From a virus: a DNA stretch of 55,058 nucleotides. Positions 37,636 to 48,993 of this stretch are shown here, one piece after another (the stretch's first letter is position 1; each line of letters opens with the position of its first letter). A program made the position numbers and the translations under genes. The stretch covers positions 1 through 55,058 of the IMG/VR virus record IMGVR_UViG_3300032116_000257; one strand, 5' to 3'. The notes beneath the pieces are model-generated. The model searched no databases. It worked only from the letters and a program-made list of their open reading frames with translations, and was not told where the DNA came from.

Positions 37636-37824
37636 ATGATCATCTACTTCACCCTGACTACAGATGAAGCCATCTATCAGTTCCAGGTGAACAAGGAGGA
37701 GAATCTGGTGCGTGTCACCAAGATGATCCTCAAGGCTCAATGCCCAGGAGAGTGGCATCGCTCCACACTCATGACCGTAGACGCAGGGCGCAAGCTCGTG
37801 CGTCAACTACAGAAGACCAGGTGA
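37636..37824 (+). CDS. Small protein, first gene of the right arm (62 aa)
   Basis: The ATG at 37636 is preceded by AGAGGA, one of few plausible ribosome-binding sites in this arm; the longer upstream frame to 37510 has poor composition. The protein (MIIYFTLTTDEAIYQFQVN) looks like a small alpha-beta domain. Function unknown. Its stop codon lies inside the first class A RNA element. Confidence 0.65.
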   Translation: MIIYFTLTTDEAIYQFQVNKEENLVRVTKMILKAQCPGEWHRSTLMTVDAGRKLVRQLQKTR

Positions 37825-37883
37825 GTTATAGCTCCCAAGCCAGGTGCAATGCCTGGCTCTGGTCATTGCCACAATCCAGTGGC
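37815..37883 (+). promoter_or_regulatory. Class A intergenic element 1 (T-arm-like three-way junction)
   Basis: P1 is GACCAG with CTGGTC (37815-37820 / 37859-37864). P2 is GAGT with GCTC around TATA. P3 is AGCCAGG with CCTGGCT (37838-37858) around the 7-nt loop TGCAATG. After ATT comes the hairpin GCCAC / GTGGC (37868-37883), 17 nt before the next ATG. The upstream TGA (37822-37824) falls between P1 and P2. Confidence 0.72.
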
Positions 37884-37900
37884 ATCTACTACCTAACACC

Positions 37901-38092
37901 ATGGGTTTCCGTACATCCCTCGGACGTGCATTCTCTGCAGCTACTCAGGCTGCATCACAAGAGTGGCACGAGTCTCAGCTTGATCGTCGCATCACTGGCG
38001 ACGTCATCCGTTACAACGACCGTCGTATCACTGGCGACTACGCGCCAATCAACCAACGCAACAACTCCCGCGTTACTTATAGCGGGCGCTGA
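37901..38092 (+). CDS. Small protein (63 aa)
   Basis: Starts MGFRTSLGRAFSAATQAASQ and has an internal repeat RRITGDVIRYND / RRITGDYAPINQ near the end. The upstream in-frame extension runs through the RNA element and is rejected. No Shine-Dalgarno site. I do not recognise the family. Confidence 0.65.
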   Translation: MGFRTSLGRAFSAATQAASQEWHESQLDRRITGDVIRYNDRRITGDYAPINQRNNSRVTYSGR

Positions 38093-38149
38093 TCCGTAAG
38101 CGGACAGGGAGGTGCAAGTCCTCCCATCAGCATTGCCACAATCAGTGGC
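38089..38149 (+). promoter_or_regulatory. Class A intergenic element 2
   Basis: P1 is CTGAT with ATCAG (38089-38093 / 38126-38130) and contains the upstream stop TGA. P2 is CCG with CGG around TAAG. P3 is GGGAGG with CCTCCC around TGCAAGT (38113-38119). The ATTGCCACAATC hairpin follows, 18 nt before the next ATG. Confidence 0.74.
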
Positions 38150-38167
38150 ATCTACTCCATACCAACC

Positions 38168-38350
38168 ATGACTCAACAACTAGCTGCCGGCATCATCGCC
38201 GTTGCTACAACCATGGGTATTACTACCCAAGTCACCATCCATCTCCTGGATGTAGCTACGGCTAAGCAATGTCGCACTCATGACTGGCCGGCAACACAAC
38301 ACAGCGCACACATGGAATGGTGCGCAACCAACAACTATCCAACCAACTGA
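38168..38350 (+). CDS. Small membrane or exported protein (60 aa)
   Basis: The first 28 residues are hydrophobic (LAAGIIAVATTMGITTQV), then a Cys/His/Trp-bearing tail (AKQCRTHDWPATQHSAHMEW). It could be a single-TM protein with the tail outside, or exported. Function unknown. Confidence 0.62.
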   Translation: MTQQLAAGIIAVATTMGITTQVTIHLLDVATAKQCRTHDWPATQHSAHMEWCATNNYPTN

Positions 38351-38410
38351 TCCGTCTAAGCGGGTGACCAGGTGCAAACCCTGGTCCAGTTATTGCCACA
38401 ATCCCGTGGC
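38345..38410 (+). promoter_or_regulatory. Class A intergenic element 3
   Basis: P1 is AACTG with CAGTT (38345-38349 / 38387-38391), and the upstream TGA starts within it. P2 is TCCG with CGGG. P3 is GACCAGG with CCTGGTC around TGCAAAC. The GCCAC / GTGGC hairpin is at 38395-38410, 17 nt before the next ATG. All stems differ in sequence from element 2 but keep pairing. Confidence 0.74.
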
Positions 38411-38427
38411 ATCTATCCCATACCAAC

Positions 38428-38628
38428 ATGGCGGACATGCAAATCTTTGCAGTTTACAAAGACAATAGCGACAGGTATATATCTGCTTGGAGAAATTATT
38501 CCGACGCATATGCGGCGGCAGGTGAAATACAAGCTATGGATCCAGAAGCAACTTACTCCGTTCACACTATTGAAGAGGAAGAGTTTTCTGATTTCTGGTT
38601 CCACAATCTACATTTAACACTAGTCTGA
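38428..38628 (+). CDS. Small protein (66 aa)
   Basis: Acidic alpha-beta protein (MQIFAVYKDNSDRYISAW, then AAAGEIQAMDPEATYSVH). No family recognised. It shows the common pattern of this arm: short gene, no Shine-Dalgarno, structured elements at both ends. Confidence 0.65.
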   Translation: MADMQIFAVYKDNSDRYISAWRNYSDAYAAAGEIQAMDPEATYSVHTIEEEEFSDFWFHNLHLTLV

Positions 38629-38680
38629 TGGTGCAGGAGGGGTTCGATTCCCCTCCCAGGCATTGCCACAATCCCGTGGC
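38623..38680 (+). promoter_or_regulatory. Class A intergenic element 4 (canonical T-arm)
   Basis: P3 is GGAGGGG with CCCCTCC around TTCGATT, which is an exact tRNA T-arm loop. P1 is GTCTG with CAGGC (38623-38627 / 38657-38661) and includes the start of the stop TGA. The P2 hairpin is reduced to an 8-nt linker. The conserved hairpin follows at 38665-38680, 19 nt before the next ATG. Confidence 0.74.
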
Positions 38681-38699
38681 ATCCACTCAACACAACACT

Positions 38700-38894
38700 A
38701 TGTATTACATCATCATTGATGGCGTACAACATGGTTTCTCCCTTCAATGGGAAGAAGCACTGATCGAAGCTGCACAACAAGACCACATGCTTAACTCGCC
38801 GGAGTTAAACGACGGCATCCAAGGCACGCATGACGTACAAATCATGTCCTTCCAGGAGATGATGGAGGCCGACGACGTTGTGATGGTCATCTGA
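38700..38894 (+). CDS. Small acidic protein (64 aa)
   Basis: Starts MYYIIIDGVQHGFSLQWEEA; the C-terminus is acidic (MMEADDVVMVI). The longer upstream frame passes through the RNA element and is rejected. No family recognised; it resembles the gene at 38428 in length and style. Confidence 0.64.
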   Translation: MYYIIIDGVQHGFSLQWEEALIEAAQQDHMLNSPELNDGIQGTHDVQIMSFQEMMEADDVVMVI

Positions 38895-38951
38895 CCAGGC
38901 GTGAGCCGGGGCATCGAATGCCCCATACAACTATTGCCACAATCCCGTGGC
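38877..38951 (+). promoter_or_regulatory. Class A intergenic element 5 (cloverleaf-like)
   Basis: GTTGT pairs with ACAAC (38877-38881 / 38927-38931). Inside are hairpins TGGTCA/TGACCA, GGC/GCC around GTGA, and GGGGC/GCCCC around ATCGAAT. This gives a small four-way cloverleaf that overlaps the end of the coding region. The ATTGCCACAATC hairpin follows, 17 nt before the next ATG. Confidence 0.65.
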
Positions 38952-38968
38952 ATCTACTACACAACACC

Positions 38969-39199
38969 ATGTTGATCTACCAGCCTGAGTTTGACACTCG
39001 TCATCGCGTCATCTGGAATGGAGGTGACAGCTCTATGCTTCACTTCCAGAAACTGAAGGACGGCGAATGGAAGTACCTTGATAGCGTGACGTTTATGTCC
39101 ATGCCTACAGGTACCAAAGAACTTCTCTACGAGATGAGAGAGTATTACAACTTCTCTATGACCATGCTCCAGGACATCATGTATGCGATAGCATTCTGA
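38969..39199 (+). CDS. Small protein (76 aa)
   Basis: Starts MLIYQPEFDTRHRVIWN; contains MLHFQKLKDGEWKYL and an amphipathic C-terminal helix. No family recognised. ATG chosen because the upstream frame is the RNA element. Confidence 0.65.
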   Translation: MLIYQPEFDTRHRVIWNGGDSSMLHFQKLKDGEWKYLDSVTFMSMPTGTKELLYEMREYYNFSMTMLQDIMYAIAF

Positions 39200-39200
39200 T

Positions 39201-39272
39201 CCCTGCACTTAACCCTTCCGTTGTGGTATGCATGTACTACGACGGTGGGTTCTCTGCAGGACTCACATCCTG
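39201..39272 (+). promoter_or_regulatory. Class C intergenic element 1
   Basis: AACCC pairs with GGGTT (39210-39214 / 39246-39250), enclosing CCGT/ACGG and GTGGTA/TACTAC. A second hairpin GCAGGA/TCCTGC around CTCACA (39255-39272) ends 23 nt before the next ATG. Element 2 of this class at 39904 has the same plan with changed pairs. Confidence 0.68.
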
Positions 39273-39295
39273 CTCATCAACATCACAGTATTCTT

Positions 39296-39707: not shown

Positions 39708-39905
39708 ATGTCCAACTCATTCAAAGACTCCTGTGTTGCTCTTGTCATTGGCATTGGTAGTGGCTTACTCCTATCTACTGGAGTACAGAAGCTACTCAAC
39801 CAACACTACGAAGAACACTGCAACGCAAGACCAAACCACAACCTTATACGTACACAAGGACTCTTAGGAGACACATACTACTGTATCCACAGTAAGTACC
39901 TGTAA
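39708..39905 (+). CDS. Single-TM protein (65 aa)
   Basis: One membrane segment (CVALVIGIGSGLLLSTGV, residues 9-26) and a tail with two Cys (EEHCNARPNHNLIRTQG, then YYCIHSKYL) that may form a disulfide in the periplasm. The C-terminal part resembles the tail of the gene at 51027. Function unknown. Confidence 0.65.
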   Translation: MSNSFKDSCVALVIGIGSGLLLSTGVQKLLNQHYEEHCNARPNHNLIRTQGLLGDTYYCIHSKYL

Positions 39906-39971
39906 TCTGCACATAACTCTCCCGGTAGTACACATGTATTGCCGGTGAGTTTTCTGCAGGTCACACCTGCA
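39904..39971 (+). promoter_or_regulatory. Class C intergenic element 2
   Basis: AACTC pairs with GAGTT (39915-39919 / 39947-39951), enclosing CCGGTA/TGCCGG and GTACA/TGTAT. Then TGCAGG/CCTGCA around TCACA, 28 nt before the next ATG. Compared with 39201, the outer and inner stems show paired changes. Confidence 0.68.
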
Positions 39972-39999
39972 CTACACCACACGACACCAAGCTAGTTCC

Positions 40000-40239
40000 A
40001 TGAACTACCAAGCTGTTGAACAACTTCTCACGCAGGATGCTCGCCTGCTTGCCAGAAGAGATGCCCCTGTCATTGATCAAGAACTTGAAGAACAGCGTCA
40101 AGCTGCTCTCGAGATCTTCTTCCAATGGCAGGATGGCATGCGTGAGTACCAAGACCTTATGCCGTTCTGCGTTGTACTTCAACGTAAGGTAGATCTCAAC
40201 AGGGATCTGCTTCGTTGGGAACGCAGGCATGAGGACTGA
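40000..40239 (+). CDS. Small helical protein (79 aa)
   Basis: Nearly all helical and charged (VEQLLTQDARLLARRDAP, then LNRDLLRWERRHED). No family recognised. No Shine-Dalgarno site. Confidence 0.65.
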   Translation: MNYQAVEQLLTQDARLLARRDAPVIDQELEEQRQAALEIFFQWQDGMREYQDLMPFCVVLQRKVDLNRDLLRWERRHED

Positions 40240-41239: not shown

Positions 41240-41243
41240 TAAC

Positions 41244-41280
41244 ACTAGGCATCCACACCATGTGTGGTGTAAGTCCTAGT
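41244..41280 (+). promoter_or_regulatory. Class B intergenic hairpin 2
   Basis: ACTAGG/CCTAGT outer stem, CAT opposite TGTAAGT (41268-41274), inner stem CCACAC/GTGTGG. Next ATG is 28 nt on. The outer stem differs from other members but stays paired. Confidence 0.72.
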
Positions 41281-41308
41281 CAATTCATTACTCAACTCAA
41301 CTCAAACC

Positions 41309-41665: not shown

Positions 41666-41671
41666 TCAACA

Positions 41672-41721
41672 CATGGGCATCCACTATTGAGAATTTTAGC
41701 AAGAGTTGTGTAAGTCCCATG
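41672..41721 (+). promoter_or_regulatory. Class B intergenic hairpin 3 (long inner stem)
   Basis: CATGGG/CCCATG outer stem, CAT opposite TGTAAGT (41709-41715). The inner arm is longer (28 nt) and imperfect. It keeps the conserved internal loop although length and stem sequence change. Confidence 0.66.
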
Positions 41722-41749
41722 CTCAACTGTCCACCTACCTCAACTCAAC

Positions 41750-41974
41750 ATGGGCGCACTCATGGAGCAGACTGAAGACAACAAGCGGTATCACCTCATC
41801 ATCAACGTTGATGAGAAGTATGCCATCGTCAACGCACTAGCCTTCTATCATGCACACCACACTCTGGGTGCACTGATGGATGAGGATGAGCGTGAACAAT
41901 ACATGCTCGCATTCCAAGAAGATGGTCCAACCTTTGTTGATTCCTTAGCAACAAAGGTGGCCAATACCTTCTGA
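41750..41974 (+). CDS. Small protein (74 aa)
   Basis: Contains YHLIINVDEKYAIVNALAF and an acidic turn (DEDEREQYMLAFQEDG). No family recognised. A second ATG at residue 5 is possible. Confidence 0.65.
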   Translation: MGALMEQTEDNKRYHLIINVDEKYAIVNALAFYHAHHTLGALMDEDEREQYMLAFQEDGPTFVDSLATKVANTF

Positions 41975-41977
41975 TCA

Positions 41978-42016
41978 CTGGGCAGCACCGACGTAAGTAC
42001 GGTGTGTAAGTCCCAG
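41978..42016 (+). promoter_or_regulatory. Class B intergenic hairpin 4
   Basis: CTGGG/CCCAG outer stem, CAG opposite TGTAAGT (42005-42011), inner stem CACCG/CGGTG. Next ATG 30 nt on. Confidence 0.7.
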
Positions 42017-42046
42017 GCTTTACTGTCTACTTACTTAACTCAAACC

Positions 42047-43676: not shown

Positions 43677-43687
43677 CTAAGTTTAAG

Positions 43688-43726
43688 CCTGGGCATCCAC
43701 ACATTTAGTGTGGTGTAAGTCCCAGG
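43688..43726 (+). promoter_or_regulatory. Class B hairpin 5 (in a 5' leader, not between co-directional genes)
   Basis: CCTGGG/CCCAGG outer stem, CAT opposite TGTAAGT (43714-43720), inner stem CCACAC/GTGTGG around ATTTA. It follows the start of a minus-strand gene, so it cannot be a 3' element; it belongs to the leader of the gene at 43752, 25 nt before its ATG. Confidence 0.75.
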
Positions 43727-43751
43727 GCATCTCCACTTACTCACAACAACC

Positions 43752-44003: not shown

Positions 44004-44010
44004 TTAATAC

Positions 44011-44038
44011 CTGGGCATCCACATGGTGTAAGTCCCAG
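44011..44038 (+). promoter_or_regulatory. Class B intergenic hairpin 6 (minimal)
   Basis: CTGGG/CCCAG outer stem, CAT opposite TGTAAGT (44027-44033), inner CCA/TGG with a 2-nt cap. Shortest form of the class. Next ATG 30 nt on. Confidence 0.68.
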
Positions 44039-44068
44039 AGTTACACCAACCTCACCTTCAACTCAACC

Positions 44069-44867: not shown

Positions 44868-44895
44868 CTGGGCATCCTTACGGTGTAAGTCCCAC
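44868..44895 (+). promoter_or_regulatory. Class B intergenic hairpin 7
   Basis: TGGG/CCCA outer stem, CAT opposite TGTAAGT (44884-44890), inner CC/GG around TTAC. With its upstream flank it is nearly identical to hairpin 8 at 45255. Next ATG 27 nt on. Confidence 0.68.
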
Positions 44896-44922
44896 ATCCA
44901 ACTTCCATCTCAACATAACACC

Positions 44923-45240: not shown

Positions 45241-45254
45241 GTTAATCTAAAGAT

Positions 45255-45282
45255 CTGGGCATCCTTACGGTGTAAGTCCCAG
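45255..45282 (+). promoter_or_regulatory. Class B intergenic hairpin 8
   Basis: CTGGG/CCCAG outer stem (extended by GA/TC with a mismatch), CAT opposite TGTAAGT (45271-45277), inner CC/GG around TTAC. Next ATG 31 nt on. Confidence 0.7.
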
Positions 45283-45313
45283 GTCTTGTCCACCAACTCA
45301 ATTCAATTCAACC

Positions 45314-46518: not shown

Positions 46519-46528
46519 TTAACCGTCC

Positions 46529-46551
46529 TGGGCATGACGTTAAACTGCCTA
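46529..46551 (+). promoter_or_regulatory. Class D intergenic hairpin 1
   Basis: TGGGCA/TGCCTA stem (one G-U) around TGACGTTAAAC (46535-46545). It is preceded by AACCGTCC and ends 22 nt before the next ATG. Confidence 0.68.
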
Positions 46552-46873: not shown

Positions 46874-46883
46874 TCAACCGTCC

Positions 46884-46906
46884 TGGACATGACGCTAAAC
46901 TGTCCA
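46884..46906 (+). promoter_or_regulatory. Class D intergenic hairpin 2
   Basis: TGGACA/TGTCCA stem around TGACGCTAAAC (46890-46900), again after AACCGTCC and again 22 nt before the ATG. Relative to hairpin 1 a G-C pair is A-U and a G-U becomes G-C. Confidence 0.7.
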
Positions 46907-48717: not shown

Positions 48718-48927
48718 ATGGACTACACCGATGACCAACTACTTGCCATGGCCATGGCCAACATTGGTGAGTACATTACGGACAACTCACCGCAGTACAT
48801 CTTGATTGAAGAAGATCCTCGCAATGAGGATGACTACGATAGCTGGACTTACGGAATGGAAGTCCTGCCTCAAGATCACACTTGGCAGTCAGATTCAATT
48901 GACGTAAGCCCAAGTGAGGCCGACTAG
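48718..48927 (+). CDS. Small acidic protein whose stop codon lies in the tRNA
   Basis: The 69-aa protein (MDYTDDQLLAMAMANIGEY, then DPRNEDDYDSWTYGMEV) is strongly acidic. No family recognised. Its last three codons and TAG stop (48925-48927) are bases 1-10 of the tRNA, so one transcript cannot yield both the full mRNA and the mature tRNA. Confidence 0.66.
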   Translation: MDYTDDQLLAMAMANIGEYITDNSPQYILIEEDPRNEDDYDSWTYGMEVLPQDHTWQSDSIDVSPSEAD

Positions 48928-48993
48928 CCCAACGGCAGAGGCAAGCGACTTAAAATCGCTACAGTCCCGGTTCGAATCCGGGGTCGGCTACCA
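48918..48993 (+). tRNA. tRNA-Leu(UAA)-like, CCA encoded, short variable loop
   Basis: Acceptor GGCCGAC with GTCGGCT (G1-U72 wobble), T8 A9, D-arm GCC/GGC, anticodon stem AGCGA/TCGCT with loop CTTAAAA (anticodon TAA), variable loop of five bases (ACAGT), T-arm CCCGG/CCGGG with loop TTCGAAT, A73 and encoded CCA at 48991-48993. Leucine tRNAs of bacteria usually have a long variable arm, so this class I body is unusual; I recall similar short forms in some phages. The next ATG is 18 nt after CCA. Confidence 0.9.

Follow-up and report, generated by a model that had tools for sequence, protein, structure and literature searches.

Minimal tRNA-like elements between genes of cyanobacterial phages: candidate signals for mRNA punctuation

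Five elements between six small genes

The window analyzed here is the whole stretch of 55,058 nucleotides of a virus record, and the virus is a relative of S-EIV1, a freshwater phage of Synechococcus. At 37.6-39.2 kb it contains six small genes, and five elements are located in the gaps between them (Table 1). All elements have the same plan, i.e., an outer stem P1, a short hairpin P2, and a stem P3 with a loop of 7 nt, followed by one unpaired A and a hairpin that starts with TTGCCAC. For the small genes no PHROG or Pfam match above the cut-off was obtained, and thus the gene functions gave no clue to the elements.

The elements had been proposed in a first-pass annotation of the sequence. 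Their presence at this place was confirmed, they turned out to be strongly conserved, and the P1 pairs and loop sequences listed for them were correct. Folding of the single sequences recovered the P1/P2/P3 plan and the hairpin for elements 1-3. In the case of elements 4 and 5 the lowest-energy fold departed in part from the plan, which is backed for these two by the family alignment.

The hairpin behind the fold had been described as invariant. This is true within the window, where ATTGCCACAAT is present in exactly five copies (37865, 38132, 38392, 38662, and 38933); as many matches, with one mismatch allowed, were reached in only one of 100 shuffles. The invariance does not extend to the relatives, which have TTACCCCCAGCGGAGATGGGTA, TTGCCTCACACTGAGTGAGGC, or other sequences at the same place. 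The distances from the hairpin to the next ATG had been given as 17, 18, 17, 19, and 17 nt. The pattern was verified, but the hairpin had been ended one base too early, and, counted from its last A, the distances for elements 1-5 are 16, 17, 16, 18, and 16 nt, so that the leader has a length of 16-18 nt. The stop codon of the upstream gene was indeed found inside P1 (elements 2-4) or directly behind its 5' strand (element 1); the exception is element 5, in which the 5' strand of P1 falls within the coding sequence and the stop codon is in P2.

The proposed similarity of the P3 loops to the T-loop of tRNAs is good, and it is exact for element 4. The other loops deviate at one position, i.e., position 55 is a G in the TGCAA loops and position 54 is an A in the ATCGA loop. 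A strict pattern of T-loop, 12-bp stack, UU, and hairpin matched only elements 2, 3, and 4 when both strands of the window were scanned, and it matched once in 40 randomized windows. Elements 1 and 5 were missed owing to one extra base in their spacing.

Table 1. Genes, elements, and further intergenic repeats in the window
Feature	Position	Strand	Remarks
Small gene upstream of element 1	37636..37824	+	62 aa; stop 37822-37824 right behind P1 5' strand
Element 1	37815..37864	+	P1 GACCAG/CTGGTC, P2, P3 loop TGCAATG; 13-bp stack; model R1 62.5 bits, E 2.6e-11
Element 1, N73-equivalent A	37865	+	predicted cut 37865/37866, from the putative register
Element 1, hairpin TTGCCACAATCCAGTGGCA	37866..37884	+	predicted 5' end of processed mRNA
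Gene g3	37901..38092	+	63 aa
Element 2	38088..38131	+	P1 GCTGAT/ATCAGC (6) + P3 6 bp, loop TGCAAGT; 12-bp stack; 60.6 bits
Element 2, N73-equivalent A	38132	+	predicted cut 38132/38133
Element 2, hairpin TTGCCACAATCAGTGGCA	38133..38150	+	
Gene g0	38168..38350	+	60 aa; most frequent gene of these arrays
Element 3	38345..38391	+	P1 AACTG/CAGTT (5) + P3 GACCAGG/CCTGGTC (7), loop TGCAAAC; TGA in P1; 93 bits, E 4e-18
Element 3, N73-equivalent A	38392	+	predicted cut 38392/38393
Element 3, hairpin TTGCCACAATCCCGTGGCA	38393..38411	+	
Gene g8	38428..38628	+	66 aa; missing from locus L007, crossover in hairpin
Element 4	38623..38661	+	P1 GTCTG/CAGGC + P3 GGAGGGG/CCCCTCC, loop TTCGATT (exact tRNA T-loop); 53 bits, E 3.4e-9
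Element 4, N73-equivalent A	38662	+	predicted cut 38662/38663
Element 4, hairpin TTGCCACAATCCCGTGGCA	38663..38681	+	
Gene g2	38700..38894	+	64 aa
Element 5	38877..38932	+	P1 GTTGT/ACAAC, two small hairpins, P3 GGGGC/GCCCC, loop ATCGAAT; 26.8 bits, E 0.0025
Element 5, N73-equivalent A	38933	+	predicted cut 38933/38934
Element 5, hairpin TTGCCACAATCCCGTGGCA	38934..38952	+	
Gene g1	38969..39199	+	76 aa; last gene preceded by an element of this class
CTGGGCATCC-hairpin-GGTGTAAGTCCCAG repeat	41243-41282, 41667-41730, 41974-42025, 43687-43735, 44010-44040, 44868-44900, 45250-45290		

Intrinsic terminators (GC stem and T run) were absent from the plus strand of the elements, and a scan for sigma-70-type promoters, which does not cover phage-specific promoters, gave no promoter-like site in 37815-38951.

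Further repeats are present between genes of the window. The second type, CTGGGCATCC-hairpin-GGTGTAAGTCCCAG, is located between small genes and is followed by the same CA-rich leader and then an ATG. In related phages, GTAAGTCC is found just upstream of a tRNA-Leu gene. The third type (39199-39295 and 39905-40000) consists of a long hairpin and then TTCTCTGCAGGACTCACATCCTGC or TTTTCTGCAGGTCACACCTGC, and the fourth (46523-46550 and 46880-46905) has the sequence CCGTCCTGG(G/A)CATGACG(T/C)TAAACTG(C/T)C. The window also encodes a tRNA-Leu(taa) with CCA (48918-48993), which is followed by a CA-rich leader and, 18 nt on, an ATG. Possibly, this tRNA also serves as punctuation.

A covarying RNA family with the geometry of a tRNA

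The elements belong to a widespread family of RNA elements that is new to Rfam. The hairpin pattern was found in 45 stretches of viral contigs, and the pattern of the fold alone, without the hairpin, in more than 119. A covariance model built from 31 type-I elements gave 148 matches in 47 sources. It matched all 26 related phage records that were searched, with one to six copies each; S-EIV1 has two. No family for the elements was found in Rfam, neither with gathering nor with relaxed thresholds, and the first-pass statement that no such family had been described thus holds for Rfam 15 and for the open-access papers searched. The conserved hairpin had no exact match in host genome contigs, and plasmids gave chance matches only.

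Covariation in homologues had been set beforehand as the test for a functional RNA structure, and it was found. In the type-I alignment 96.8% of the pair cells are paired, and two-sided changes occur in all five P1 pairs and in five of the seven P3 pairs. The number of compensatory, two-sided cells was 118, in comparison to 38.6 in shuffles, and the covariation score was 0.443, in comparison to at most 0.124 when the partner was slid. RNAalifold predicted the same structure from this alignment unaided. P2 and the TTGCCAC hairpin are near-invariant in the type-I set and thus contain little covariation information there; in wider relatives the hairpin behind the fold varies widely in sequence, while its pairing is kept. 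The covariation, together with the conserved position in many phages, established that the elements are functional RNA structures. In L081-L112 the alternative hairpin TTACCC-CAGCGGAGAT-GGGTA is often trailed by a second, small hairpin, e.g., CACGGAG..CCGTG, which contains a Shine-Dalgarno-like GGAG and the start codon, and the stem sequences of which vary.

The five elements are not cloverleafs: with Rfam RF00005 or ARAGORN none reached the cut-off for a tRNA with D, anticodon, and T arms, and ARAGORN called none of them a tRNA, while the related element L126 was miscalled as tRNA-???. They do have the dimensions of one half of a tRNA. P1 and P3 together normally form a stack of 12 bp, either 5+7 or 6+6, i.e., the junction slides and the sum is kept. 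In 30 of the 31 sequences, the partner of alignment column 46 is column 26 (5+7) or column 9 (6+6), and never both. The one exception is element 2 of the window, which is misaligned there and is itself of the 6+6 type. The combination of a 12-bp stack, a 7-nt T-loop, and an unpaired base at the place of N73 is exact in elements 2-4, whereas elements 1 and 5 have one base more.

In tRNAs, 20 nt are counted from T54 to N73 when both bases are included. In the family the distance from the first T-loop base to the hairpin was 20 nt in 59 of 78 elements and 21 nt in the remaining 19. An A occupies the N73 position in 132 of 156 elements, and TT comes next in 152 of 156. In the nonredundant cores (n = 26) the respective numbers are 19 for A and 23 for TT, and CC was never found. 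In 23 of the 26 nonredundant elements a TGA begins 2-3 nt inside P1.

The slot upstream of the capsid gene in marine cyanophages

A blast search with one element led to marine T7-like cyanophages. In S-SBP1 an element is located upstream of the major capsid gene, again with the stop codon in P1. The same slot contains an element with a T-loop, about 12 bp, and then TT in P-SSP7, P-SSP2, P-SSP3, S-TIP37, and S-CBP3. MedDCM-S45-C4 and S-CBP42 have kept the loop, the spacing, the A, and the TT, although their P2 is missing or changed. In NATL1A-7 the slot is occupied by an annotated tRNA-Gly without CCA, and TTGGC follows directly behind its N73, i.e., in the same register.

A search with a capsid-slot pattern, which itself presets the register of T-loop and TTGGC, yielded 107 stretches, and the finding is that complete tRNAs satisfy this preset register. 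Among the stretches with a real T-stem, ARAGORN identified eight tRNAs (six Gly, one Cys, and one Met), all of them CCA-less and on metagenomic contigs, and about thirty are minimal elements. Two further cases, L209 and L282, look to us like tRNAs that have lost the D arm. All of these share the same register. Of the 21 contigs checked, 19 contain the gene for the capsid protein shortly behind the slot, and the other two end too soon. True tRNAs were found only in this podovirus slot, and not in the S-EIV1-like arrays. The natural swap with a tRNA is the strongest argument that the fold acts as a tRNA at this place.

Two further features of the slot were observed. About ten cyanopodovirus records (L193, L194, L196, L198, L199, and L203-L207) have a different conserved hairpin at this place, stem-CACCTCAGAGTCGGA-stem, mostly followed by TA and then TTGGC; the loop of this hairpin, UCAGA, may represent a further T-loop-like form. 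In addition, an unannotated short ORF was found in L189 (2399-2507), with equivalents in L192, L208, and L214. Its 3' end encodes a YRGVxY-like motif, and it stops in or beside the pre-capsid element in S-SBP1, P-SSP7, and others.

Possible processing of the elements and alternative explanations

The first-pass annotation had considered punctuation signals cut by RNase P or RNase Z, or modules of translation control. This interpretation was supported in part: punctuation by tRNA-like units is strongly indicated by the ruler of 12 bp plus N73 and by the true tRNAs in the same slot of other phages, and in the window such units do lie at junctions of genes of one transcription direction. We consider it probable that the elements are minimal tRNA mimics that serve as mRNA punctuation, and that the host RNase Z cuts them after the N73 equivalent.

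RNase Z is favored. The constant features of the elements correspond to those of a site for this enzyme. The enzyme cuts directly behind the discriminator base, and CC or CCA at this place blocks it (PMC7479834). The enzyme of B. subtilis contacts the T arm and the acceptor stem, and it does not require the D and anticodon arms (PMC7479834). By sequence, the elements contain the acceptor/T-arm stack and the discriminator base, and in none of the 26 nonredundant elements does CC follow directly behind it. Cyanobacteria possess RNase Z as well as RNase P (PMC10989914).

The proposed mechanism would be as follows. P1 stacked on P3 would copy the helix of acceptor stem and T arm, P3 would bring the T-loop-like loop, the unpaired base would take the site of the discriminator N73, and P2 would stand in for the remainder of the tRNA and be dispensable. 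RNase Z, the host endonuclease for tRNA 3' ends, perhaps together with RNase P, would bind this ruler and cut behind the N73 equivalent. The downstream mRNA would then start with UU and the hairpin, which may shield its 5' end from RNase E/J; an unstructured leader would come next, and then the start codon. In E. coli, an mRNA 5' end of this type, with UU and a hairpin, slows 5'-end-dependent decay. The upstream mRNA would keep its stop codon and end with a tRNA-like fold that may resist 3' exonucleases. A ribosome terminating in P1 would presumably keep the fold open until its departure, and thus the upstream gene could be translated before the cut.

Several observations weigh against punctuation. 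Some RNases Z need a matured 5' end (PMC7479834), while cleavage of P1 by RNase P would be located 2-3 nt before the stop codon in most elements. The extra base of elements 1 and 5, the weak model match of element 5, and the non-canonical position 55 or 54 of the TGCAA and ATCGA loops also count against it, as do the confinement of true tRNAs to the podovirus capsid slot and the podovirus records with a different hairpin there.

The alternative that has to be considered first is that RNase P is the main processing enzyme and cleaves P1 at its 5' base, which would leave the upstream mRNA without a stop codon and the fold as a 5' structure on the downstream mRNA. The tRNA elbow is recognized by both enzymes, and RNase P measures the same stack of T arm and acceptor stem (PMC4810234). 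The true tRNAs of the capsid slot would be its substrates, and RNase P substrates are known among phage and operon RNAs, i.e., the C4 RNA of P1/P7, M3 RNA, and T4 gene 32 mRNA (PMC11143913). However, a 5' cut would yield a non-stop message in 23 of the 26 nonredundant elements, and this position of the TGA makes a 3' cut by RNase Z more plausible than a 5' cut by RNase P. In addition, the constant part of the elements is the 3' side with N73, UU, and hairpin, and RCCA is missing behind the stack. A main role of RNase P is thus unlikely.

Two further explanations are less probable than RNase P. The first is a coupling of translation without any cleavage, in which a ribosome at the P1 stop codon opens P1 and P2, and refolding brings the stop codon near the next start codon for reinitiation. 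The fixed position of the stop codon in P1, the short leader in the window, and the GGAG beside the start codon behind some related hairpins would agree with such a coupling. It leaves unexplained the 12-bp ruler, the T-loop, the N73-UU, and the swap with complete tRNAs, and more than 100 nt separate the element from the start codon behind it in the capsid slot. The second, which we rate as equally improbable, is that the repeats act mainly as DNA, i.e., that the shared hairpins are homology arms for the exchange of cassettes, as in the PeSL cassettes of T4-like phages. The gene order is mosaic, and the arrays of related phages have differing sets of small genes. Gene g8 is missing from locus L007, where the flanks on either side share an overlap of 30 bases that corresponds to the hairpin region. 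The element type usually travels with the gene upstream of the element. This junction and this linkage indicate that units of gene and element are shuffled as cassettes by recombination in the shared hairpin. However, homology arms need neither compensatory changes nor a T-loop nor a constant sum of 12 bp; recombination in the hairpin explains neither the covariation nor the ruler, and the shuffling is probably a by-product.

Least probable of all is an uncut tRNA-like fold that guards 3' ends arising through termination or through a different nuclease, which would suit the stable, GC-rich folds and the nearby stop codon, but not the lack of a terminator-like site or the strict register of the downstream hairpin.

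Punctuation by tRNA-like units would have a close parallel in animal mitochondria, where tRNA-shaped units between the genes of a polycistronic RNA are cut by RNase P and RNase Z, and the real tRNAs in some capsid slots add to the similarity. In contrast, the phage units are mostly mimics of the acceptor/T half with 40-55 nt, they occur in a DNA phage and are immediately followed by a hairpin, and the cleavage is predicted. C4, M3, and T4 gene 32 mRNA likewise are phage transcripts that meet a tRNA-processing enzyme (PMC11143913), but they are single cases, whereas the cyanophage elements form a family that recurs between genes, has a constant 3' register, and is followed by a hairpin. The elements and the PeSL cassettes share that they are repeated intergenic modules tied to gene shuffling. 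PeSL cassettes carry an early promoter, whereas the sigma-70-type scan gave no promoter-like site in the elements. Phage T7 has RNase III sites between its genes. These are also intergenic structures that give rise to discrete mRNAs, and they use a long duplex instead of a tRNA ruler and a T-loop. The tRNA-like structures of plant RNA viruses, the mascRNA of MALAT1, and the TMERs of herpesviruses belong to eukaryotic systems and are found at 3' ends or within non-coding RNAs. Their presumed similarity to the elements is that mimicry of a tRNA recruits RNase P/Z or other tRNA enzymes (in part PMC4810234); the difference is that they do not punctuate between phage genes, as is proposed for the elements.

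A more specific version of the proposal seems to us evenly balanced between true and false. It states that the elements are a dedicated family of mini-tRNAs of cyanobacterial DNA phages, which are cut by the host RNase Z alone and which occur in unrelated lineages, i.e., S-EIV1-like phages from freshwater and T7-like phages from the sea, P-SSP7 among them. They would convert a polycistronic RNA into mRNAs that are led by a hairpin, the capsid slot would grade from complete via degenerate tRNAs to minimal forms of 40-55 nt, and the upstream mRNA would perhaps gain a 3' CCA.

A description of tRNA punctuation in phages was not found in the open-access literature searched, and to our knowledge there is no earlier case of systematic punctuation by tRNA mimics in DNA phages. 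If the proposal is true, it would be the first one, and it would precede the capsid gene of abundant viruses of the ocean, among them the model phage P-SSP7. Because Rfam has no family for the elements, many leaders of cyanophages lack an annotation. The punctuation reading predicts single RNA ends exactly, and it suggests a way in which mRNA levels in such phages could be set post-transcriptionally. For P-SSP7 (AY939843.2; T-loop at L192:545) the predicted 5'-monophosphate end would be located between 20680 and 20681, about 140 nt upstream of the capsid gene, and for NATL1A-7 right after the tRNA-Gly. The natural gradation between complete tRNAs and minimal mimics would also be material for defining the true requirements of the tRNA-processing enzymes.
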